Of a stretch of 64,000 nt of DNA, positions 8,720 to 47,491 are shown in pieces. Within the stretch, counting starts at the first letter, position 1. Each line of letters starts with the position of its first letter. The DNA is from Winslowiella iniecta (GTDB taxonomy: Bacteria; Pseudomonadota; Gammaproteobacteria; Enterobacterales; Enterobacteriaceae). The translations under genes and the position numbers were made by a program. The DNA lies in contig NZ_JRXE01000016.1 in assembly GCF_001267535.1 (NCBI RefSeq), positions 1-64,000 on the forward strand. Direction: 5' to 3'. The notes beneath the pieces are model-generated. The model saw nothing but the letters and a program-made list of their open reading frames with translations. It did not search any database and had not been told where the DNA came from.

Positions 8720-9709
8720 ATGTCGCCAGACGATCGCGTTTATGCTTACTCGGCGGTATTGATGGGGTCGCCGATCCTGCTCAAGCTGCTCGAGCATAAT
8801 CAGCCGGTAGCCGCTGGCGTCTTCCGACTGATTAAACAGCAGGAAAATCTGCTGACGGTTAACCGGCCAGACTCCGAAGTGATGGCGATTAACCATGCAG
8901 CGGGCGAGCATCCGGTGGTGGTCAGCCAGCCGGTATTTGAACTGATTGCCCGCGCCAGAGAGATCAGCTTACTGGAAGGCAGTTGTTTTAATTTCACGAT
9001 AGGTCCGCTGGTTAAATGCTGGAAAATCGGCTTTCACGGCAACCGCGTTCCGCCTGCTGCGGAAATCGCGCGGCTGCTGACGCTGACCGATCCCCGGCAG
9101 GTGATTCTTGACCGCCAGGCGCGCTCGGTGTTTCTGCCAGTAAAAGGCATGGAGATCGACCTCGGGGCGATTGCTAAAGGCGATATCGCCGATCGGGTGC
9201 GGGATTTTCTCCGCCAGCAGCAGATTACTGATGCGCTGATCAACCTTGGCGGTAATGTGCAGACGCTCGGCGGTATGCCCGGCAGCGCAAACTGGGGAAT
9301 CGGCCTGAAAAAGCCCTTTGCCGGGCCGGATGATTTAATTGGCGTGATCGGCATCAGCGGAAAATCGGTGGTCACTTCCGGCATTTACGAGCGCTATTTT
9401 GAACTGGCAGGGCAGCGCTATCACCATATTCTCAATCCCGAAACCGGTTTTCCGCTGGATAACGAACTGCTCAGCGTCACGGTCATTTCTCCGCAATCTA
9501 TTGATGGCGATATCTTTACCACGTTGCTGTATGGCATGGGCGTGGAAAAAGGGCTGGCCTGTCTGGCGACAACGCCGGAAATTGAGGCCGTTTTTGTTAC
9601 AAAACAGCGGCAGGTCATCTGCTCATCACAGCGGCAGTTTAACTTTACCCTGCTGGACAGCAGCTATCAGCTCGGGCGCAATCAACTCTCAGCGGGAAGG
9701 ATGTTATGA
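8720..9709 (+). CDS. apbE: FAD:protein FMN transferase (ApbE family), cytoplasmic type
   Basis: This 329-residue protein transfers FMN from FAD to a Thr in the D-x2-[ST]-G-A-T motif of target proteins. Family signatures are present: DLGAIAKGDIAD (147-158), NLGGN (175-179), a TSG segment at 219-221, and YHHILNPETGFP (about 234-245). There is no signal peptide or lipobox, unlike periplasmic ApbE that services NqrC or RnfG. This fits modification of the cytoplasmic reductase fusion encoded 67 bp upstream, whose FMN-bind domain carries the target motif. GGTGAGGG provides the ribosome binding site. The two genes probably form one operon with the hairpin between them. Confidence 0.92.
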   Translation: MSPDDRVYAYSAVLMGSPILLKLLEHNQPVAAGVFRLIKQQENLLTVNRPDSEVMAINHAAGEHPVVVSQPVFELIARAREISLLEGSCFNFTIGPLVKCWKIGFHGNRVPPAAEIARLLTLTDPRQVILDRQARSVFLPVKGMEIDLGAIAKGDIADRVRDFLRQQQITDALINLGGNVQTLGGMPGSANWGIGLKKPFAGPDDLIGVIGISGKSVVTSGIYERYFELAGQRYHHILNPETGFPLDNELLSVTVISPQSIDGDIFTTLLYGMGVEKGLACLATTPEIEAVFVTKQRQVICSSQRQFNFTLLDSSYQLGRNQLSAGRML

Positions 9710-9780
9710 TGGTGCAATTATTTCCGCATTCAGGCTAGCCCTGCGGCGATACTCGCAAAATTATCCAAGGAGACAACAGT

Positions 9781-10353
9781 ATGAAACAAGGACCACTGGA
9801 GCTGGAAGAACTGGAATGGCTGGATGATGTTCTTCTGAAATACAGTAATGAACATTCCATACTTGATGTTTCTGAGCTTGATGGTTTGCTGACCGCGATT
9901 CTTTCGGGGCCAAATCTGGTCGAGCCGAGTCAATGGTTGCCAGCGTTGTGGGGGGGGGAACAGTATGCCCCGGTCTGGGAATCAGAAGAGGAATTGCAGC
10001 GCTTTATGGCGCTCAGCTTCCAGCATATGAATGATATCGCTGAGCGGCTGAATGACTACCCGGAGCAGTTTGAACCGCTGTTCGGCGAGAGCCTTGTGGA
10101 TGATAAAGAGTTCACCATCCTTGAACAGTGGTGCTTCGGCTATATGCGCGGTGTGGCACTGGATAACTGGTCGGCGCTGCCTGAAAAGCTGCAACCTTCG
10201 CTGGATCTGATCGCTCTGCACGGTCTGGAAGAAAACTTTGTCAGACTCGATAACCTGTCCTATGAAGATTTTGAACGCGATATCGCGGCGATTCCCGCTG
10301 CAGCACTGGTGCTGCATGCATACTGGCTGGGCCAGCGCTCAACGGTAAACTAA
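9781..10353 (+). CDS. UPF0149 (YecA/YgfB) family protein
   Basis: This 190-residue acidic protein is of the UPF0149 family (ELDGLLTAILSGP at 32-44; EQWCFGYMRG at 119-128). E. coli YecA ends in a zinc-binding SEC-C segment; here the protein stops before any such cysteine cluster. Function in the family is not established. AAGGAG lies at ideal distance from the ATG. The coding sequence contains nine consecutive G residues at 9950-9958 (Leu-Trp-Gly-Gly-Glu), an unusual homopolymer for enterobacterial coding DNA. It appears to be a single-gene unit ended by a hairpin at 10366-10392. Confidence 0.8.
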   Translation: MKQGPLELEELEWLDDVLLKYSNEHSILDVSELDGLLTAILSGPNLVEPSQWLPALWGGEQYAPVWESEEELQRFMALSFQHMNDIAERLNDYPEQFEPLFGESLVDDKEFTILEQWCFGYMRGVALDNWSALPEKLQPSLDLIALHGLEENFVRLDNLSYEDFERDIAAIPAAALVLHAYWLGQRSTVN

Positions 10354-10365
10354 CTGTCTGACCAT

Positions 10366-10392
10366 CCTGCCCGTTGCTTGCGCACGGGCAGG
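10366..10392 (+). terminator. Hairpin after the UPF0149 gene
   Basis: CCTGCCCGT and ACGGGCAGG form a perfect 9-bp stem with a nine-base loop starting 12 bases after the stop codon. The tail is GTTATCCC, so any Rho-independent activity would be modest. Confidence 0.5.
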
Positions 10393-10644
10393 GTTATCCC
10401 ATCACGCCATCCCATCCCTGAACATATTTAACGTTAAAAATTAATCATATCCGGATGCTGATTCCGTCACCAGAATGCGCTGACCTGCCAGATACGGCTC
10501 AGTTAGCTTATTGCCTTTATTGTTATGATTTTAATGATAATTAGTGCGTTTTGCTTAATTTCTTGCCTGAATTACCCGACTTGCACCCGTTCTCAGCGTA
10601 ATGTGCGCCTGGTCAAAATTCCACAAATTCAGCCTTATCAGGGA

Positions 10645-10673
10645 TTGATAATTCGCGTCGCGAAAAATATTCT
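10645..10673 (+). promoter_or_regulatory. chiP promoter with a NagC-like operator in the spacer
   Basis: TTGATA (10645-10650) and TATTCT (10668-10673) are separated by exactly 17 bases. The spacer is filled by TTCGCG-T-CGCGAA (10652-10664), a perfect 13-bp inverted repeat with AT-rich flanks. That core resembles NagC/Mlc-type operators. NagC represses chiP in E. coli and Salmonella, so a repressor bound here would occlude RNA polymerase until GlcNAc-6-phosphate appears. The site call is by eye. The remainder of 10354-10754 holds no supported gene. Confidence 0.55.
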
Positions 10674-10754
10674 GTTACTCATTCCTGGCGGCTGCGCACT
10701 GCGCGCATCCGGCCTCGGTACCCTAACGCTTTTGTCAGTTAAAAAGGATTTTAT

Positions 10755-12239
10755 ATGCATCAGCACCTTAACCGGGGCAAGGACACGGCTTGCCTGAAAT
10801 CACCCTCTGCCACCCTGAACCCAGTGGCTTTCGCCCTGGCCGGAACCTTGCTGGCGGGGGGAACAGGTTATTCAGCCTCTGCTCAGGCGGAGGGATTTAT
10901 TGAAGACTCCAGCCTGACCGGCGGCTTCTATTACTGGCAGCGTGAGCGCGATCGTAAAGACCTGAATAAAACTCGCGAGGAAAAGCGCCCGGACGGCAGC
11001 ACGGTGATTGTAGACAACCCGGACTACAACCGTTACGCCACCAACCTCTCACATGCCACTGCCAACCTGAATCTTGATTTCTCTTCCGGCTATGCCTGGG
11101 ACCTGTTTGGCGTCGACCTGGCGGCATTTACCGCCGTTGAACTGGCTGAATCCCGTGCCAGTGGCCATCCCAATGAAATCGCCTTTTCCGCGAAAAACCG
11201 GACCTATAGCGAGGATTTTTCCGGTGATAAAAGTGGCGCCAGTGTGTATAAGGCCGCGGCAAAATTTCGCCATGACGGTTTCTGGGGGCATGCCGGTTAC
11301 ATCCAGCCAACCGGCCAGACGCTGCTTGCGCCGCACTGGAGCTTTATGCCCGGGACTTATCGCGGTGCCGAAGCCGGATATCAGGCGGATTTTGGAGCGG
11401 GCGGTGAGCTGAGCCTGGCGTATTTGTGGGCGGATAAATACAAGTCCCCCTGGCACACTGAAATGGATGATTTCCGCCGTAATGATCGCCAGACCCACAT
11501 TGCTTACCTTCATTCGCTGGGGGCGAAATACGACTTCAAAAACAATCTGGTAGTGGAAGCGGCTTACGGCCAGGCGGCCAGTTACCTCGATCAGTACTTT
11601 ACCAAAGCCAGCTGGAAAACCGAGCTGGCAGGGAATCCACTGACCACCAGCTATCAGTTTTATGGCGCGCAGGACAGGATCGGTAATAAAAACGATCCCA
11701 ACAGTCTGTACGACGGCCTGGCGTGGCTGCAAGCGGTGACGTTAGGTTATACCACCGGCCCGTTTAGCTGGCGTCTTGAAGGCACCATGGTGAAGGCCGA
11801 AGGCAATCAGGGCTATTTCCTGCAACGTATGACGCCGGGATACGCCTCTTCCAATGGTCGGCTGGATATCTGGTGGGATAACCGTTCGGACTTCAACGCC
11901 AATGGTGAAAAAGCGGTGTATGCCGGTGTGATGTATGACCTGAAAAACTGGGATCTGCCGGGCTTTGCCGTCGGGGGATCATGGGTCTATGCCTGGGATG
12001 CGAGGCCGAGCAGCAACCCTCAGTTCGATCAAAGCCAGCGCCTGAAAGAGAGCGCCTGGAGCCTTGATGCGATCTACACCGTACAACAAGGCCGCGCCAA
12101 AGATACGCAGTTCAAACTGCATTACACCCAGTACAACAATCATTCCGACCTGCCAAGCTGGAGCGGCGGTTACGGCAATATTTTCCAGGATGAGAAAGAC
12201 GTGAAATTTATCGTTATCGCGCCATTCACTCTCTTCTGA
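10755..12239 (+). CDS. chiP: Chitoporin (OprD-family outer-membrane porin)
   Basis: This 494-residue outer-membrane protein has a signal peptide ending near ASAQA (about residue 45) and a mature start [20 protein letters not shown], which is the OprD/ChiP barrel opening. It ends in Phe (IAPFTLF), typical for BAM recognition. Length is close to enterobacterial ChiP (about 470). It admits chito-oligosaccharides into the periplasm, where the chitobiase encoded next would trim them. AAAAAGGA precedes the ATG. In Salmonella/E. coli and Serratia a lipoprotein gene chiQ lies between or beside these genes; none is present here. Confidence 0.85.
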
Positions 12240-33534: not shown

Positions 33535-33759
33535 ATGGAAATGCAACACTTTATCTTTTTCGTCAAAGGAAAAACCGTTGTTCCCCAGTCACTTGATGAG
33601 GCTGAAGCGGGCGAGATTATTCGCTCGGTTTTATTACAGCAATTTAACATTTCCCGCTTACATATTATCGCAAGAAATAATAAAGAGGCTTTGGATAAGT
33701 TCGCGCTAATCAGCGAAACGGCGGCAGATGATGTGCTGAAGGAGGTGGTGCTATGTTAA
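33535..33759 (+). CDS. 74-residue protein of unknown function, first gene of the carbamoyltransferase cassette
   Basis: ATG 33535 follows AAAGGAGG at good spacing; an upstream in-frame ATG (33514) precedes the ribosome site and is rejected. The 74-residue product looks like a compact alpha/beta protein: strand HFIFFVKGKTVVP, helix EAEAGEIIRSVLLQQF, strand RLHIIAR, helix NKEALDKFALI. It ends in Cys. There is no signal peptide. The last seven bases overlap the carbamoyltransferase gene, so translation is probably coupled. I do not recognise the family. It could be a partner subunit or, less likely, a precursor or carrier. Confidence 0.65.
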   Translation: MEMQHFIFFVKGKTVVPQSLDEAEAGEIIRSVLLQQFNISRLHIIARNNKEALDKFALISETAADDVLKEVVLC

Positions 33760-35438
33760 TCCTCGGCATTACCAATAGTGATACCGCCGGAGCCTGTCTG
33801 GTTGAGGGTAACAAGATCATTGCTGCGGCGCATGAAGAGCGATTTACCCGGATCAAAGGCCATAAAGTCTGGCCACAAATGTCGATTGATTTTTTATTGA
33901 AATCTACAGAAAAAACCTTAGCGGACGTGGATGTCGTCGCCTACGGCTGGAAGGCCGGATTTAATGAGGAGTATTGCCTTAATTTATATGTCGAGCGGAT
34001 TATTTATGAATGCATCAATAATTTTAATAATGTGAATATTTTAAAGAAAAGAATTGCCGATGAAATGATTAATGATGCCGGAAAAAGAGCCGAGTTCGAT
34101 CGTTTTATTGCGGATAATAATCTGCACAACAAAGTGATGTATATCGACCATCATGACACGCACGCGTGGGGAGCCTGGCTGTGCTCACCCTTTGATCAGG
34201 CGCTGGTAATGACCTGTGATGGCAGAGGCGACTTTATTTCGTTAACCGTGCGTTATATTGATAACGGCAGTGAGGTGGTGCTGCAACGGGAAACCACGCT
34301 CGACAGTCTTGGCTATTTTTATGGTCGGATCACCCATTTGCTCGGTTTTAAACCCAACCGCCATGAAGGTAAAATCACCGGACTGGCGGCGCATGGCGAC
34401 CCGCTCAAGGCGCTGCCGCTGATGCGCAAAATGATAGAGGTGCGCGATAGTCGGCTGATTGCCAACTGTGGCGATTATTATCTGCCGTCTTATCATTGCT
34501 ACTCAGAAAAGCTGATCAATGAAATCAGGAGCTTTTCCCCACAGGATATTGCCGCTGCGGCACAAAAACATATCCAGGATATTATCGCGGCAATTCTGCT
34601 GCCGTATGTGAAAAACTATAAGGCTAAGAATATCTGTCTGGCGGGGGGGCTATTTGGCAATGTCCGACTCAACCAATGTGTCCGCGAGCTGGCCGGTGTT
34701 GACAATGTTTTTGTCCTTCCCTGCATGGGGGATGAAGGATTACCGCTGGCGGCAGCGGTGACAGCATTGTGGCGTAAAACAGCAAATCGCTGTTTGCTCA
34801 ACAGTATGGCGCTCGGCCCCGAATTCAGTAACCGTCAGATTGAGGATATTTTATCGCAACAGAGCGATTTGAAAGTTGAGCAGCCAGGGGATCTGTCTAA
34901 AGAGATTTTAATGTTGCTGCGTTCAGACGCCATTCTGGCGTTTTTCCGGGGTCGTATGGAGTTTGGCCCCCGTGCGCTTTGTCAGCGCAGCATCATCTAT
35001 CACGCCAATAATAAGGATGTGAATATCTGGCTGAATAAAAAACTGCAGCGCACTGAGTTTATGCCTTTTGCTCCGGTAACGGCGGATAATCTGGCAGAGT
35101 TCTGTTTCTGTAACTGGTCTGGCGAGGATAAGTCGGCAGAATTTATGACCATTACTTATAACTGTAAACCAGTCATGACCGCGCGCTGTCCGGCGACCGT
35201 ACATGTTGATAATACCGCTCGTCCTCAAATTGTCAGCGAAGAGAGCGACCCTTTTATGTATACCTTAATCAATAAATGGTACCAGTTATCTGGTCAGCCT
35301 TGCCTGGTCAACACCTCATTTAATCGTCACGAAGAGCCAATAATTAATACTCCACAGCAGGCACTGTCCGTTTTGCGTGAAGGGGCGGTGGATGCGGTGA
35401 TATTTAATGATAAATTCCTCGTAACAAGGAACAATTAA
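33753..35438 (+). CDS. O-carbamoyltransferase, NodU/CmcH/TobZ family
   Basis: This 561-residue cytoplasmic enzyme matches the two-domain carbamoyltransferase family, which makes carbamoyl-adenylate from carbamoyl phosphate and ATP and then carbamoylates a hydroxyl group. The Kae1-like N-domain has DHHDTHAWGAW (metal His133/His137), CDGRGD (Asp156), GLAAHG (210-215) and AGGLFGNVRLN (297-307). The C-domain has RMEFGPRALCQRS (401-413), EFMPFAPV and NTSFNRHEEP. All key motifs are intact. The acceptor is unknown; relatives act on nodulation factors, antibiotics and surface sugars. It overlaps both neighbours and is followed by a HAD phosphatase. Confidence 0.88.
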   Translation: MLILGITNSDTAGACLVEGNKIIAAAHEERFTRIKGHKVWPQMSIDFLLKSTEKTLADVDVVAYGWKAGFNEEYCLNLYVERIIYECINNFNNVNILKKRIADEMINDAGKRAEFDRFIADNNLHNKVMYIDHHDTHAWGAWLCSPFDQALVMTCDGRGDFISLTVRYIDNGSEVVLQRETTLDSLGYFYGRITHLLGFKPNRHEGKITGLAAHGDPLKALPLMRKMIEVRDSRLIANCGDYYLPSYHCYSEKLINEIRSFSPQDIAAAAQKHIQDIIAAILLPYVKNYKAKNICLAGGLFGNVRLNQCVRELAGVDNVFVLPCMGDEGLPLAAAVTALWRKTANRCLLNSMALGPEFSNRQIEDILSQQSDLKVEQPGDLSKEILMLLRSDAILAFFRGRMEFGPRALCQRSIIYHANNKDVNIWLNKKLQRTEFMPFAPVTADNLAEFCFCNWSGEDKSAEFMTITYNCKPVMTARCPATVHVDNTARPQIVSEESDPFMYTLINKWYQLSGQPCLVNTSFNRHEEPIINTPQQALSVLREGAVDAVIFNDKFLVTRNN

Positions 35439-42058: not shown

Positions 42059-43321
42059 ATGAAAATGATCAATGCTAAAGGTTTTTTTATCGCCAATGCA
42101 CTGGTGGCAGCACTGGGTTGGGGTGCCAGCGCGCACGCTGATGATGCTGAGCTGATTAAGCGAGGCGAGTATATTTCGCGGCTGGGTGACTGTAGTGCCT
42201 GTCACTCGATTCCGGGCAAAGCTGAGTTTTCTGGTGGACTGGCAATCGAGTCGAATCTTGGCACGATTTATTCGACCAATATCACCCCCGATAAGCAGCA
42301 TGGTATCGGTAATTATACCGAGCAGCAGTTTGCTGATGCGGTGCGCAAGGGCGTGTTGCCGGATGGCACTCGCCTGTATCCGGCGATGCCTTATCCTGAT
42401 TATGTGAAGATCAACGATGAGGATATGCACGCGCTTTACACTTACTTTATGCAGGGCGTGAAGGCAAGTGCAGAGCAGCCAGCGGAAACCGATCTCAGCT
42501 TCCCGTTTAGCCAGCGCTGGGGCATGCGTTTCTGGAACTGGGCGTTCACCAGTGATACGCCTTTCCAGCCAATTGGCGGTGCTTCTGCGCAGATAAACCG
42601 TGGTGCCTATCTGGTCGAAAGCCTGGGTCACTGCGGCAGCTGCCATACTCCGCGTGGCCTGGGTATGAATGAGAAAGCCCTCGACAGCAGCGATCCGCAG
42701 TTCCTTGCCGGTGGCAATCTTAACGGCTGGGAAGTACCGACCCTGCGTGGCATGCCGCGCTGGAGCGAGCAGGAGATTGTCGATTATCTGGCGACCGGAC
42801 GTAATGACAAGGCGGCGGTGGGCGGTGAAATGACCTCGGTGGTTGAGCACAGTACCTCGTATATGACCGACGACGATTTGCAGGCGATTGCCGCTTATCT
42901 GAAATTCCTCGGCGGCAATCCACCGCTGGTGAAAGGCGATACGCAAGCGGCACAGGCCACCGAAGCCAAACTGACGGCGGCGAAAAACCTGACCACTGGC
43001 GAACGTCTTTACCTTGATAACTGCGGTGCCTGCCACTTTGTTACCGGCAAAGGTTCTCCGGGCATTTTCCCGGAGCTGGATCAGGCGACGATCGTGAATG
43101 CGCAGGAGCCCGGTGGTTTGATCCATACCATTCTTGCGGGCGCACAGCAGCCCTCTACTGCGCGTGCACCTTCAACGTTGGTGATGCCTGGTTTTGCCGG
43201 GCGTCTGAATGATGATGAAGTGGCGCAGCTGGCGACCTTTATCCGTCAGGGATGGAGCAATAACGCTGCTGCGGTCAGTGCAGATCAGGTGAAAAAGATC
43301 CGTGAAAACCTGAAACACTGA
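42059..43321 (+). CDS. Triheme cytochrome c subunit (cluster 2)
   Basis: This 420-residue exported cytochrome has a signal peptide ending ASAHA (about residue 27) and three haem motifs: CSACH, CGSCH and CGACH. It starts five bases after the flavoprotein stop, so it is translationally linked. It should transfer electrons from the flavoprotein to the quinone pool. It has a cleavable-looking signal, whereas the cluster 1 cytochrome looks N-terminally anchored. The hairpin at 43337-43360 ends the operon. Confidence 0.86.
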   Translation: MKMINAKGFFIANALVAALGWGASAHADDAELIKRGEYISRLGDCSACHSIPGKAEFSGGLAIESNLGTIYSTNITPDKQHGIGNYTEQQFADAVRKGVLPDGTRLYPAMPYPDYVKINDEDMHALYTYFMQGVKASAEQPAETDLSFPFSQRWGMRFWNWAFTSDTPFQPIGGASAQINRGAYLVESLGHCGSCHTPRGLGMNEKALDSSDPQFLAGGNLNGWEVPTLRGMPRWSEQEIVDYLATGRNDKAAVGGEMTSVVEHSTSYMTDDDLQAIAAYLKFLGGNPPLVKGDTQAAQATEAKLTAAKNLTTGERLYLDNCGACHFVTGKGSPGIFPELDQATIVNAQEPGGLIHTILAGAQQPSTARAPSTLVMPGFAGRLNDDEVAQLATFIRQGWSNNAAAVSADQVKKIRENLKH

Positions 43322-43336
43322 TAATCGGTGATAAAT

Positions 43337-43360
43337 CCGGGCGGTGGAAACATCGCCCGG
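43337..43360 (+). terminator. Hairpin ending dehydrogenase cluster 2
   Basis: CCGGGCGGTG and CATCGCCCGG pair over ten positions (one G-U) with a GAAA tetraloop, 16 bases after the stop. A weak U-containing tail (CGTTCATGTCG) follows. The remaining sequence to 43625 is AT-rich and holds no gene. Confidence 0.55.
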
Positions 43361-43625
43361 CGTTCATGTCGTTGCTGTTCACAAGCTGCTGAAAATTCCT
43401 TCCGGCCTTTCTGGCTAAATCTGCTCAATATCGCAATAAATTTAACATTCACAAATCTTATCAATTAATTTTACTTGAGTGAATTTCAACATCACCGGAT
43501 TAATTCAACGATTTATCCGATTGTATTTTAATAATTTCTTAAAATATACTCATCGCGCTTATTAACAACTATTTCAATTTATTAATACCTCTTAGCGAAA
43601 AACTGACAACACAGGACGTCATACC

Positions 43626-44375
43626 ATGAAGAACACTCAGGTTGCCCCGCTGCTTGCTACCCTTATTTCTGCAATATTATTGACCGCATGTTCTGGCGGT
43701 GGCGGTGGCGGTGACGACGGCCCGGCAGTCACCAATGAAACGCCAGCCTCTGGCGGTAGCGGCACGGATAACGGGAATTCTGATAACAACGGCGCGGGCG
43801 AAAACAGCGCTTCCATTCCGGCCAGTAAAGCAACTGCGGGTTCGATCACCGCTTACACCTACGTTGCGCCGAACGGCAAACAGTATGTTCTGCGCAACGG
43901 CGGTATTTCTGCTGGTGGTCTGACGCAGTTAACTATCGGCGGTGAAGCGATCACTTACTGCTGCGGCCGTATGAGCTACACCAACTACGGCAGCTGGTCC
44001 GCCGCTGACGGTCAGACTTCCGCAGTGTTTTACACCGGCGAAGGCACCGCGGCCAGTGCCGTGCCAACTCAGGGCAGTGCAACCTATACCGGTAGCGGGA
44101 TCCGTGGCAGCAGTGTGGCAGACGCCACCTTTAACGTCGATTTTGCCGCGAAAACAATTAAAGGTAACGTGAGCGGCGACAGCGCCTTCGGCTCAGCGAT
44201 TGCCATGCAGGGCAACATTGAAGGCGGAGGCTTTAAAGGCAGCGCGCAGACGGGTAGCCAGACCGGCACCTTTGTTGGTCATTTTAATGGGCCTCAGGCC
44301 GAGGAGCTGGGTGGTATCGCGCAGTTTGCTGACGCGAAGATGGACGCCGCATTTGGCGCGACTGCACAGAAATAA
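43626..44375 (+). CDS. Surface lipoprotein with TbpB-like beta-barrel domain, probable SLAM cargo
   Basis: This 249-residue lipoprotein has signal peptide and lipobox LLTAC (Cys22), then a Gly/Asp/Asn-rich flexible linker (about 23-65), then a small beta-barrel. Its C-terminal pattern ATYTGSGIRG, VDFAAKTIKGNVSG and GTFVGHFNGPQAEELGG is the TbpB B/D-type barrel signature. An unusual vicinal pair Cys-Cys (TYCCGRM) sits in the barrel. The next gene is a SLAM-type translocator, the hallmark of cargo-translocon pairs in this system (also called type XI secretion). Relatives bind haem or transferrin or act in host colonisation; the ligand here is unknown. Confidence 0.82.
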   Translation: MKNTQVAPLLATLISAILLTACSGGGGGGDDGPAVTNETPASGGSGTDNGNSDNNGAGENSASIPASKATAGSITAYTYVAPNGKQYVLRNGGISAGGLTQLTIGGEAITYCCGRMSYTNYGSWSAADGQTSAVFYTGEGTAASAVPTQGSATYTGSGIRGSSVADATFNVDFAAKTIKGNVSGDSAFGSAIAMQGNIEGGGFKGSAQTGSQTGTFVGHFNGPQAEELGGIAQFADAKMDAAFGATAQK

Positions 44376-44382
44376 ACTGTAT

Positions 44383-44408
44383 CCGGCTCTGCTGTTCAGC
44401 AGGGCCGG
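44383..44408 (+). terminator. Hairpin between the lipoprotein and SLAM genes
   Basis: CCGGCTCTGCTG and CAGCAGGGCCGG form a 12-bp stem (one wobble) with a minimal TT centre. It begins seven bases after the lipoprotein stop. A short A-rich, not U-rich, tail follows, so read-through to the SLAM gene at a lower level is likely. Confidence 0.6.
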
Positions 44409-44448
44409 GAAAACCCGCTTAGTGTTAATGATATGAAGCTGTATACCC

Positions 44449-45873
44449 ATGGAATTTCCCGCCCGCCGTTTTCTGCTGTTGTGTTGTTTATTTCCGGCCA
44501 TGACTTCGCAAGCTGTCCAGCCCGATACCGTGGTGATTCCTGCGGCTCCTGACCTGAATGCGCTGACACCGTCGCAACGCGGCAGCACGTCGGCTGAAGA
44601 AAAGCGGCAAACCGTCACTAACCAGACGCTGCAAAACCAGCCGGCGATGGCCGGGGCGCTACTGAATCAGGCGGTGGAGCAACAGCAGTGGCCGGTGGTA
44701 AAAGGCATTCTGCCGGTATATCAGTCCAGTCCGCAGGCCGATCCGCTGCTGGTGATGTATGCGCAGGCCGGCTTGGCGCGCAATGAAGGAAAACTGACGG
44801 AAGCGGCGGTGCTGTATCGCGAAATGCTCTCTCAGCATCCTGATCTGGTGCCGGTGCGTCTCGATCTGGCGCGGACGCTGTTTGAGGATCGCCAGTATGA
44901 AGCGGCGGCATGGAATTTTCAGCAGGCGCGCGCCGGGAATCCTCCGCCAGCCGTGCAGGAAAATATTAATCACTACCTGAGTTATATTCAGAACCACCGC
45001 GGCTGGGTGGGAAACCTCAGTTTGAGTTATCTGAATGACAGTAATGTGAATAATGCTTCGGACGGTAAAACCATCCGTATTGGTGACCGGCTGTTTGAAC
45101 GCGATCCCGATTCGTACCCGAAGCGCGGCGAAGGCATTTATTATGGTGGCACGTTGCAGCGCGATTTTAATCAGGCTGACCATCATAATATTCGCTTCAG
45201 AACCACACTGAGCGGAAAGTCATACTGGAATAATCATGCATATGACGACATTATTTCGCGTGCTTATCTCGGCTATGTTTATCAGGATGCACGCCAGCAG
45301 CTGGCGTTATTGCCCTTTTATGAAAAACGCTGGTATGGCACCGCAGCTTACTCTTACGGTGCTGGTGTGCGCGGGGAGTTCAGTTACCTGATTGCGGCTG
45401 ACTGGCAACTGAGTCAGGCGGTTGAGTATCAACAGCTTAGTTATGATTCCCAGGATTATCGTTACCTGCGGGGTGACAACCGGCTACTCTCTACCACGCT
45501 GGCACATGCGATTAATTCACGACTGTCGCTGTTTGGCGGTATTGATATCGGTGAACAAAAAACGCAATTAGCCTCAGAAACTCACCAGCGCGTTGGCGGA
45601 CGCTTCGGATTACAGACGGCATTGCCGTATGGCATATCAATGGGCGCGATGGCCAGTTTTGCGCAACGCCGCTATCAGGCGGAAAATGATATTTTTCAGC
45701 AGAAACGTCAGGATAAAGAGCAGCTTTATGCGCTGTCATTGTGGCATCGGGATCTCTATTTCTTTAATCTGATGCCGAAGATTAATGTTATTTATAAACG
45801 AATCGACAGCAATATTGATTTTTACCGTTATGACACGCTGAATGTATTTTTAAGCGTCGACAGAGAATTTTAA
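44449..45873 (+). CDS. Surface lipoprotein assembly modifier (SLAM, DUF560) outer-membrane protein
   Basis: This 474-residue protein has a signal peptide ending TSQA (about residue 22), a periplasmic TPR-rich N-domain (about 60-175; EGKLTEAAVLYREMLSQHPD, PVRLDLARTLFEDRQYEAAA), and a C-terminal beta-barrel of about 290 residues ending in Phe (FLSVDREF). This is the SLAM layout. SLAMs move specific lipoproteins across the outer membrane. It lies 73 bp after a TbpB-like lipoprotein, its probable substrate, with a hairpin between them. SLAM pairs are best known in Neisseria and Acinetobacter and are less commonly noted in Enterobacterales. Confidence 0.85.
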   Translation: MEFPARRFLLLCCLFPAMTSQAVQPDTVVIPAAPDLNALTPSQRGSTSAEEKRQTVTNQTLQNQPAMAGALLNQAVEQQQWPVVKGILPVYQSSPQADPLLVMYAQAGLARNEGKLTEAAVLYREMLSQHPDLVPVRLDLARTLFEDRQYEAAAWNFQQARAGNPPPAVQENINHYLSYIQNHRGWVGNLSLSYLNDSNVNNASDGKTIRIGDRLFERDPDSYPKRGEGIYYGGTLQRDFNQADHHNIRFRTTLSGKSYWNNHAYDDIISRAYLGYVYQDARQQLALLPFYEKRWYGTAAYSYGAGVRGEFSYLIAADWQLSQAVEYQQLSYDSQDYRYLRGDNRLLSTTLAHAINSRLSLFGGIDIGEQKTQLASETHQRVGGRFGLQTALPYGISMGAMASFAQRRYQAENDIFQQKRQDKEQLYALSLWHRDLYFFNLMPKINVIYKRIDSNIDFYRYDTLNVFLSVDREF

Positions 45874-46351
45874 TTTCCCACTGCCTGAGCTGGCGCAGTG
45901 GTCGCCAGCCGTTTCTTACCTCTCCTGAAACCCGTGAGATGGCCTGCCATAACCTCAGTCTGTGCTGTGTCCCGGCGTGCATTTGGCGCGAAACTCACCG
46001 CTATAAACATGAGTTATTTTAATCATCTCTGGTATTGAACTCTGCTGGCTGAGTGTCGCTCCAAAATTTTTATAAATTTGTGACTGAAGTCACTTTTTGA
46101 AACTGGCTAATTTTCAATCAGCCATTATGCGCCAGGTGCTTATCGTATAACCCATTGTTTTATATATTTTAATCTTAATTTACCCTCATCGTCTGGAAAT
46201 AATAACAATATAATTACTGTTAAATATTCATTTAATAATCGGCAGTTATGATTTTTGCGTAGTGCATCACAGTCAGATTTGTCAATTTGCGGCTGACTGG
46301 TAGCACGAATTGCTAATATTGCAACTGCTAATGGCTTAAGGAAATTTAACG
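45874..46351. promoter_or_regulatory. Region between the SLAM gene and arnB, with a PmrA-box-like sequence
   Basis: Close after the SLAM stop, CCACTGC/GCAGTGG (45878-45901) forms a 7-bp hairpin. At 46220-46236, TTAAAT-ATTCA-TTTAAT matches the PmrA direct-repeat pattern (YTTAAK-N5-YTTAAK) at 11 of 12 positions. A TATGAT -10 candidate lies at 46247-46252. PmrA control of arn is known in Salmonella and Pectobacterium relatives. The box is AT-rich, so chance is possible. Confidence 0.4.
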
Positions 46352-47491
46352 ATGTCTGAGTTCCTGCCTTTTTCCCGACCCGAAATGGGTGAAAGCGAAT
46401 TGGCTGCCGTTCGCGAGGTTTTTGCATCAGGTTGGATCACCACTGGCCCCAAGAATCAGCAGCTGGAACAGGCATTTTGTCAGTTAACCGGTAATCAGCA
46501 TGCCATTGCGCTCAGTTCGGCAACTGCCGGGATGCACGTCACATTGATGGCGCTGGGGATTAAGGCCGGAGATGAAGTGATTACCCCTTCGCTGACCTGG
46601 GTTTCGACGCTGAATATGATCGCTTTGCTGGGCGCTGAGCCGGTGATGATTGATGTCGACCGCGAAACGTTGATGGTGACACCGGAGCTGATTGAAGCCG
46701 CTATCACCCCGCGCACCCGGGCGATTGTGCCGGTTCACTATGCCGGTGCTCCGGCGGATATCGATGCGATTCGCGTCCTCGGCGAACGCTATGGCATCCC
46801 GGTGATTGAGGATGCAGCGCACGCGGTGGGGACGGGTTATAAGGGCGCGCATGTGGGGGCATCCGGCACCGCCATCTTCTCATTCCATGCAATTAAAAAT
46901 ATCACCTGCGCGGAAGGCGGGCTGGTGGTGACTGATGACGAACAACTGGCGAACCGTATTCGTAGTCTCAAATTTCATGGTCTGGGCGTTGATGCATATG
47001 ACCGTCAGACGCTCGGTCGCGCACCGCAAGCTGAGGTGATTAGCCCTGGCTATAAATACAATCTGGCCGATATTAACGCCGCGATTGCGCTGGTGCAGCT
47101 GGAGAAGCTACCCCAGCTTAATGCGCGCCGCGCGGCGATTGCCGGGCGTTATTTACAGGCGCTGTCCGATGGCCCTTTTACGCCACTGGCGCTGCCTGAC
47201 TGGCAACATCATCACGCCTGGCACCTGTTTATTATCCGGGTTGATGAGCAGAAAGCCGGTATCCGTCGCGACGATCTGATGCAGCAGTTAAAAAATCGTG
47301 GCATTGGCAGCGGGCTCCATTTCCGCGCGGCGCATACGCAAAAATATTATCGCGAACGCTTTCCTAAGCTCTCATTACCGGATACCGAGTGGAACTCTGA
47401 GCGTATTTGTTCAATCCCCCTGTTTCCGGCCATGACCGATGAAGACACCACGCGCGTTATTCGCGCGCTAAACGAGATTGCCGGAAAATAA
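46352..47491 (+). CDS. arnB: UDP-4-amino-4-deoxy-L-arabinose aminotransferase
   Basis: This 379-residue PLP enzyme converts UDP-4-ketopentose to UDP-L-Ara4N using glutamate. It has the DegT/DnrJ/EryC1 fold, with [10 protein letters not shown] near the start, [11 protein letters not shown], and the PLP lysine in [14 protein letters not shown] (Lys182). TAAGGA is the ribosome site. It is first of seven arn genes with overlaps or short gaps throughout. The pathway adds L-Ara4N to lipid A and gives resistance to polymyxin and cationic peptides. Confidence 0.95.

Follow-up and report, generated by a model that had tools for sequence, protein, structure and literature searches.

The window, i.e., the whole stretch of 64,000 nucleotides that was analysed, carries on its forward strand a cargo gene (43626–44375) and a Slam gene (44449–45873), which lie 73 nt apart in the reading of its open frames. 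The first encodes a putative Slam-dependent surface lipoprotein of 249 residues, which scores 88 bits against the NCBIfam model of that name (NF041636) and passes its curated cut-off of 80. Its C-terminal domain (residues 136–246) is matched by Pfam TbpB_B_D at 2.4e-14, and FHBP_C and HpuA match as well. The second encodes a protein of 474 residues assigned to Slam, the outer-membrane translocator of the type 11 secretion system (T11SS). This protein is full-length, with both expected domains present: an N-terminal TPR_Slam domain (residues 55–157, 4e-34, profile positions 2–104 of 104, that is, 103 of the 104) and a C-terminal SlipAM (DUF560) barrel (residues 186–474, 2e-67, profile positions 1–288 of 288). 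The genome of the window encodes a single TbpB_B_D protein, and one match to the window Slam was found in it.

The description of the locus as a Slam gene paired with a TbpB-like lipoprotein, given beforehand in a preliminary description, is strongly borne out by Pfam, NCBIfam, an AlphaFold2 model, and the fold match of that model. The family assignment is not new, as public annotation already makes it: Erwinia sp. E602 has a plasmid-borne homologue labelled "Slam-dependent surface lipoprotein", with a Slam labelled "porin family protein". Judged by family membership, Slam very probably carries the neighbouring lipoprotein to the cell surface. The pair is known machinery with a less ordinary branch of cargo, namely a receptor-orphan, lipidated T11SS cargo. 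The preliminary description also held that Slam pairs are mostly described in host-associated genera, which understates the record, since every clade of Proteobacteria is reported to contain Slam/T11SS proteins (PMC5449769, PMC12282271).

The distribution is patchy. In the genus, 5 of 37 genomes have a cargo homologue; in the family, the sample of 392 genomes gave 25, which divide into 12 close ones (E 1.6e-38 or better, including the window and one broken copy) and 13 distant ones (E 2.4e-12 or worse). A first scan of contigs gave no relative, and a second, made with an alignment, gave 16 loci. Slam lies directly downstream of the cargo gene, on the same strand, in all 14 intact close homologues of the genus and family searches (the window apart), and with four further loci (L066, L067, L068, and L076) and the window itself the pair is adjacent in 19/19 intact close loci, where both frames are open throughout. 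The broken copy (G381/L056, Klebsiella sp. BIGb0407, seen also as L074) was excluded from the pair counts; it is a decayed pair (9043–10838), its Slam being split into two overlapping frames and its short cargo match containing an internal TGA. Flanking genes were read for seven of the 13 distant genomes (L057–L063), and the cargos of these loci have, by pattern, neither lipobox nor Cys-Cys. In one of them (L060, 8455–11367), three tandem haemophilin-type cargo genes, with no adjoining Slam or receptor found, are followed by a very large open frame.

The constant adjacency, the open frames of the 19 loci, and the full-length Slam with its TPR and barrel domains speak against the possibility that the cargo stays in the periplasm, next to a Slam homologue that is inactive or has another role. 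A periplasmic form of NilC has been discussed (PMC9100927). Set against the arrangement just described it is very improbable, and surface display is very likely.

The cargo begins with a lipoprotein signal peptide (43626–43691), in which the lipobox LTAC occupies residues 19–22, seen by eye as well as by pattern, and is followed by serine; Cys22 is the predicted lipidated residue. A lipobox is found by pattern in the cargo of all 19 close loci, in L007 only when a downstream start codon is taken. The next segment (residues 23–61; 43692–43808) is a Gly/Ser/Asn-rich tether that is predicted to be disordered, with pLDDT below 50 for residues 21–61. It leads into a short handle or pedestal (residues 62–118; 43809–43979), where the model places strands between residues 73 and 112 and where length variation in the alignment marks a variable loop at about residues 90–108. 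The remainder is an eight-stranded C-terminal barrel (residues 119–249; 43980–44372), defined by the TbpB_B_D match and by model strands from 119 to 247, and this barrel would, by analogy, be the part that targets the protein to Slam. The AlphaFold2 model, computed from 15 sequences (the window and the loci of the alignment-based contig scan), has a mean pLDDT of 78: residues 1–61 lie below 50 almost throughout and the rest mostly above 85, with block means of at least 85 from residue 61 onwards, except for residues 91–100 (57) and 111–120 (78).

When the model was compared with solved structures by VIA-align, the top match was apo haemophilin 7re4 (Z 21.5, 2.4 Å over 181 residues), followed by the haemophilins 8gm3, 6om5, and 8glo (Z 20.8–20.9), then by HpuA (20.2), with the TbpB C-lobe 5kkx (Z 18.9) below all of these. 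The best solved chain by sequence is also a haemophilin (8glo, Haemophilus parainfluenzae, 8.7e-12). The predicted model thus has the handle-plus-barrel fold of the haemophilins. With the TbpB C-lobe and the neisserial Slam cargos it shares the lipoprotein character, the barrel domain, and a Cys-Cys at the junction of handle and barrel; unlike TbpB, which has a two-lobe build and a TbpA partner, the window cargo is a single lobe, with one barrel domain in 249 residues and no TbpA-type gene or other receptor beside it.

The junction of handle and barrel carries a set of constant residues. Cys112 and Cys113 (codons at 43959–43964) belong to a CCGxMSYT motif, of which C112, C113, G114, M116, S117, Y118, and T119 are invariant in 15/15 sequences of the alignment (A1), and the motif is present in 19/19 close loci. 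Four of these loci (L066, L067, L068, and L076) were found partly through a pattern containing CCG, so they are not independent evidence for the constancy of the Cys-Cys; the 14 from the genus and family searches are independent. The vicinal Cys-Cys had been described as lying in the barrel and treated as a peculiarity of this cargo. The two cysteines are indeed there, but in the model they lie where strand 107–112 meets the loop preceding strand 119–125, which puts them at the border between handle and barrel and not inside the barrel itself. We also rejected the notion that they are peculiar to the window cargo: they are constant in the branch, and TbpB C-lobes have Cys-Cys at the aligned spot, followed by SxLxY, with Leu at the position of the Met. 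In alignments of five TbpB C-lobe entries (5kkx, 4qq1, 4o4u, 3hol, and 4o4x) to a piece of L065, the Cys-Cys falls at the same place in all five. A literature search for a vicinal disulphide in TbpB gave no such paper among the matches listed, which is no proof of absence.

A structural role, a vicinal disulphide, and a metal site all remain as readings of this motif. If Cys112, Cys113, and Met116 bound Cu(I), Hg, or a similar soft metal, or if the vicinal pair formed a redox-responsive disulphide, the cargo would be a sensor or scavenger. Such a function would fit the invariance of the motif in the alignment, as well as the joint absence of both cysteines and the methionine from two Pseudomonas relatives and one from Burkholderiales (L075, L077, and L078). 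The TbpB C-lobes, however, keep the Cys-Cys with Leu in place of Met, so the motif may be structural, and the scanned neighbours included no metal gene; we consider a metal or redox function improbable. The bolder proposal, that the enterobacterial cargos form a distinct, receptor-independent Slam branch whose haemophilin fold is minimal and lipidated, lacks the haem clamp, and has spread with its Slam as a two-gene cassette, while Cys-Cys-Gly-x-Met has become the functional centre (soft metal or redox), is speculative to a like degree.

The likeness to haemophilins raises the question of haem. HphA holds haem between His43 and His106 of its clamp, and the haemophilin Hpl binds it through one histidine (PMC8560813). 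In the window cargo the only histidine is His219, which lies in the barrel motif GHFNG; the haem-ligand histidines of the handle are absent, and the two of HphA have no counterpart. The ordered part that precedes the barrel is also short, with about 55 residues where 8glo has about 115. In principle the cargo could still bind haem via Cys or Met, or via one histidine as Hpl does.

The surroundings of the pair, too, speak against haem. By clustering, phmmer, and Pfam on representatives, a TonB-dependent receptor is found in the operon of none of the 19 close loci, the window included, and as far as seen none adjoins the pair (the contig of L046 ends about 570 nt from the cargo, short of the upstream neighbour). 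The Pfam scan covered representatives of the nearest neighbour groups and of most frames above 550 residues, and clustering and phmmer covered the remainder. Since phmmer missed a partial receptor in L053 that Pfam later found, the absence is firm for the operon and is not claimed for 8 kb around it. In the Superficieibacter lineage, 3/19 loci (L051–L053) have a TonB-dependent receptor 6–7 kb away on one side of the pair, and another receptor gene lies about 6 kb away on the opposite side (by Pfam in L053, by clustering also in L049, L051, and L052), each in another operon. The lack of a haem or iron receptor gene beside the pair had been noted correctly for the window, and it is more informative than first thought because it holds for the operon in every one of the close loci. 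Haemophilin-type loci have a TonB-dependent receptor and a TonB-like gene after Slam in 6/7 cases (clustering and phmmer), and for L058 Pfam confirms the receptor and TonB_C. In L061 (10438–13619), the receptor gene after Slam is read in three separate frames.

Regulation by Fur had been suggested as a check, and at the level of sequence it is not favoured: the 350 nt upstream of the cargo, scanned in 18 loci (L046 left out), contain no Fur box that beats shuffled sequence. Run over 400 nt, the same scan gave 16-of-19 matches in 2/7 haemophilin-type loci, the other five not being clearly above shuffles, so either the scan does not perform evenly or the loci are not all regulated alike. A search for a shared upstream motif gave best 9-mers in 6/8 representatives, the same as in shuffles, and no sigma-70 promoter pattern was found on the forward strand in 43200–46400, hence none ahead of the cargo gene.

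These observations can be weighed against a haemophore function, in which the lipidated cargo would catch haem at the surface and pass it to an HmuR-type receptor encoded elsewhere in the genome. Such a receptor exists: a TIGR01785 haem receptor (569 bits, above its cut-off) is encoded on contig C45 and might be shared with the window cargo. In addition, haemophilins head the VIA-align list, and NF041636 also covers 6/6 haemophilin-type cargos scanned. A single histidine in a barrel motif common to most relatives, a pre-barrel part about half as long as that of 8glo, the lack of a Fur box, and an operon without receptor in 19/19 loci nevertheless make a haemophore unlikely, and the ligand is probably not haem. 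The haemophilins (HphA/HsmA of Acinetobacter baumannii, Hpl, and HrpC/HrpB) share with the window cargo the handle-plus-barrel fold (Z 20–21.5), the NF041636 match of the haemophilin-type loci, and a position beside Slam; the window cargo differs from them in being lipidated and in its short handle without haem-ligand histidines, and its locus differs in having no TonB-dependent receptor or TonB gene in the operon and no Fur box.

The 73-nt gap between the two genes folds with a predicted energy of -27.0 (z -3.6). Its hairpin (44383–44408, forward strand) pairs 44383–44393 with 44398–44408, giving 11 pairs, one of them G-U, closed by a tetraloop. A hairpin of 12 bp had been proposed to keep the cargo above its translocator; the hairpin is real, but its stem has 11 bp. 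Hairpins are predicted in the gap of 18/19 loci (none in L046), beginning 6–8 nt past the cargo stop codon in 17 loci and 22 nt past it in L055. The stem sequence varies from lineage to lineage, with C-G to U-A exchanges at one pair. The covariation is modest: the alignment (L046 left out) has 92.7% of its cells paired, compared with 89.9% after shuffling, and 2 of 8 pairs are changed on both sides, a value that 41/500 shuffles reach. Strength alone does not single this hairpin out: of the other tandem gaps in these loci, 25/47 fold at -14 or stronger (4/14 for gaps of 20–60 nt).

In the window, the bases after the hairpin are GAAAACCC and not T. We rejected its reading as a classical attenuator or terminator, as it has no U-run and the terminator scan did not pick it up. 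Several relatives carry TTTTCC or ATTTTTC after the stem, and the Burkholderiales locus (L078) carries seven T, so other members of the group may use termination. A terminator-like hairpin after Slam (45889–45909, forward strand) comes from a pattern scan and is weak, since that scan yields 6 hits where 3.7 are expected by chance. The one Rfam match lies inside Slam on the other strand and, at 25.6 bits against a gathering threshold of 50, was taken as chance.

Another possible source of a high cargo-to-translocator ratio is translation initiation. The Shine-Dalgarno element of the cargo gene in the window, AGGA (43613–43616, forward strand), has a predicted anti-Shine-Dalgarno duplex of -4.4, compared with -0.2 for Slam. 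The cargo element is the stronger one in 19/19 close pairs, versus 4/7 in other loci; for this comparison the best candidate was taken for each Slam start codon, which in relatives is uncertain, and L059 and L060 gave no pair. The stronger cargo element would by itself keep the cargo above the translocator, with no need of the hairpin, for which a part in setting the ratio is plausible.

Upstream of the pair in the window lies a gluconate-dehydrogenase-type set (Gluconate_2-dh3, GMC oxidoreductase, and cytochrome c), and downstream a DegT-family aminotransferase followed by further genes of the polymyxin-resistance (arn) type. A carbamoyltransferase with both Carbam_trans domains (N and C) is encoded further upstream (33753–35438). 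A block of about 2.7 kb around the pair (43359–46066, unstranded) is absent from the closest relative, G034: by blastn of its locus (L081) against the window, the alignment stops at 43358 and resumes at 46067, and about 220 unrelated bases stand in place of the block. The cytochrome and DegT-family proteins of G034 match at 94% identity; the two matched stretches are 545 nt apart there, and the cargo is absent. This empty site alone does not decide between a gain in the window lineage and a loss in G034.

The Slam trees favour the former. The window Slam groups with that of L046 (quick tree 98, starred; careful tree 89/93). The other four copies from the Erwinia group stand apart from it, both trees placing them inside a starred group of 16 rows, and this favours transfer. 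In other lineages the pair has different surroundings, once on a plasmid; neighbours scanned across the close loci include LuxE/LuxC, PEP carboxylase, AraC, MscS, flavin oxidoreductase, LacI, MFS, YaaH, GH1, and PgaA. The loci with Cys-Cys form one side of a branch in the Slam trees (92 in the quick and 62/78 in the careful tree), and the group is not recovered in the cargo tree, the backbone of which is unresolved. Two rows of the quick Slam tree (L016_par and L019_par) sit on extremely long branches and were probably read in the wrong frame; no conclusion depends on them. Further Slam paralogues, at 28–31% identity to the window Slam, occur in genomes of the genus (L015, L016, L017, L018, and L019).

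In sum, we read the locus, with a probability of about 0.68, as a two-gene T11SS unit that displays a surface binding or adhesion lipoprotein with no dedicated receptor, that moves as a mobile cassette, and that makes more cargo than translocator. The cargo would be exported by Sec, lipidated at Cys22, and tethered through about 40 disordered residues; Slam would recognise the eight-stranded barrel and move the cargo through the outer membrane to the cell surface. The probable binding face is the short handle with its variable loop, beside the fixed CCGxM site. Unlike the haemophilins, the cargo would hand over no haem to a partner receptor, and surface binding or adhesion with no dedicated TonB-dependent receptor is the more likely task. 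The pair would travel between enterobacteria as a small cassette. The excess of cargo over translocator would arise chiefly from the good ribosome-binding site of the cargo gene, set against hardly any on Slam, with help from the hairpin, which probably protects the end of the cargo mRNA or limits read-through.

Among Slam cargos whose function is known, many supply iron or haem systems or attach to host proteins. If a branch retained Slam and the fold but had lost receptor, haem ligands, and Fur box, it would be an example of the export route being re-used for another surface task, and the pair could serve as a compact tool for surface-display work in E. coli. Slam-adjacent lipoproteins and T11SS cargos have already been surveyed (PMC5449769, PMC8406197, PMC12282271), and the Cys-Cys branch may correspond to the mainly lipidated, haemophilin-like group 2 of Grossman et al. 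2025 (PMC12282271). NF041636 matches 15/15 members of the alignment A1 at E 0.001 or better, yet it spans both cargo types and does not separate this branch. The words Erwinia and Enterobacter are absent from the main texts of the same three papers, as available to us, and their supplementary tables may already list the branch. Among the matches listed by a full-text literature search for Erwinia with T11SS, none deals with a pair of this kind. By its description, the NilC/NilB system of Xenorhabdus nematophila, also a T11SS, has the same two-gene locus of a lipoprotein and a Slam-type protein; nilB is reported to have been acquired independently, in differing genomic surroundings, and nilB and nilC, unlike the genes of the window pair, are reported not to form an operon (PMC8406197, PMC9100927).

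Two other loci show variations in gene order. In the Burkholderiales metagenome-assembled genome (L078, 7778–10970), two tandem lipidated cargos precede one Slam, the first of them scoring 73.7, under the NF041636 cut-off of 80; the strong stem and its seven T, located between the second cargo and Slam, form a terminator-like element. In Leclercia (L067 and L068, 10508–16351), the pair lies directly upstream of PgaA-type and polysaccharide deacetylase genes (by Pfam in L067, by the same clusters in L068), and the PgaA-type protein is another outer-membrane exporter of the TPR-plus-barrel kind.
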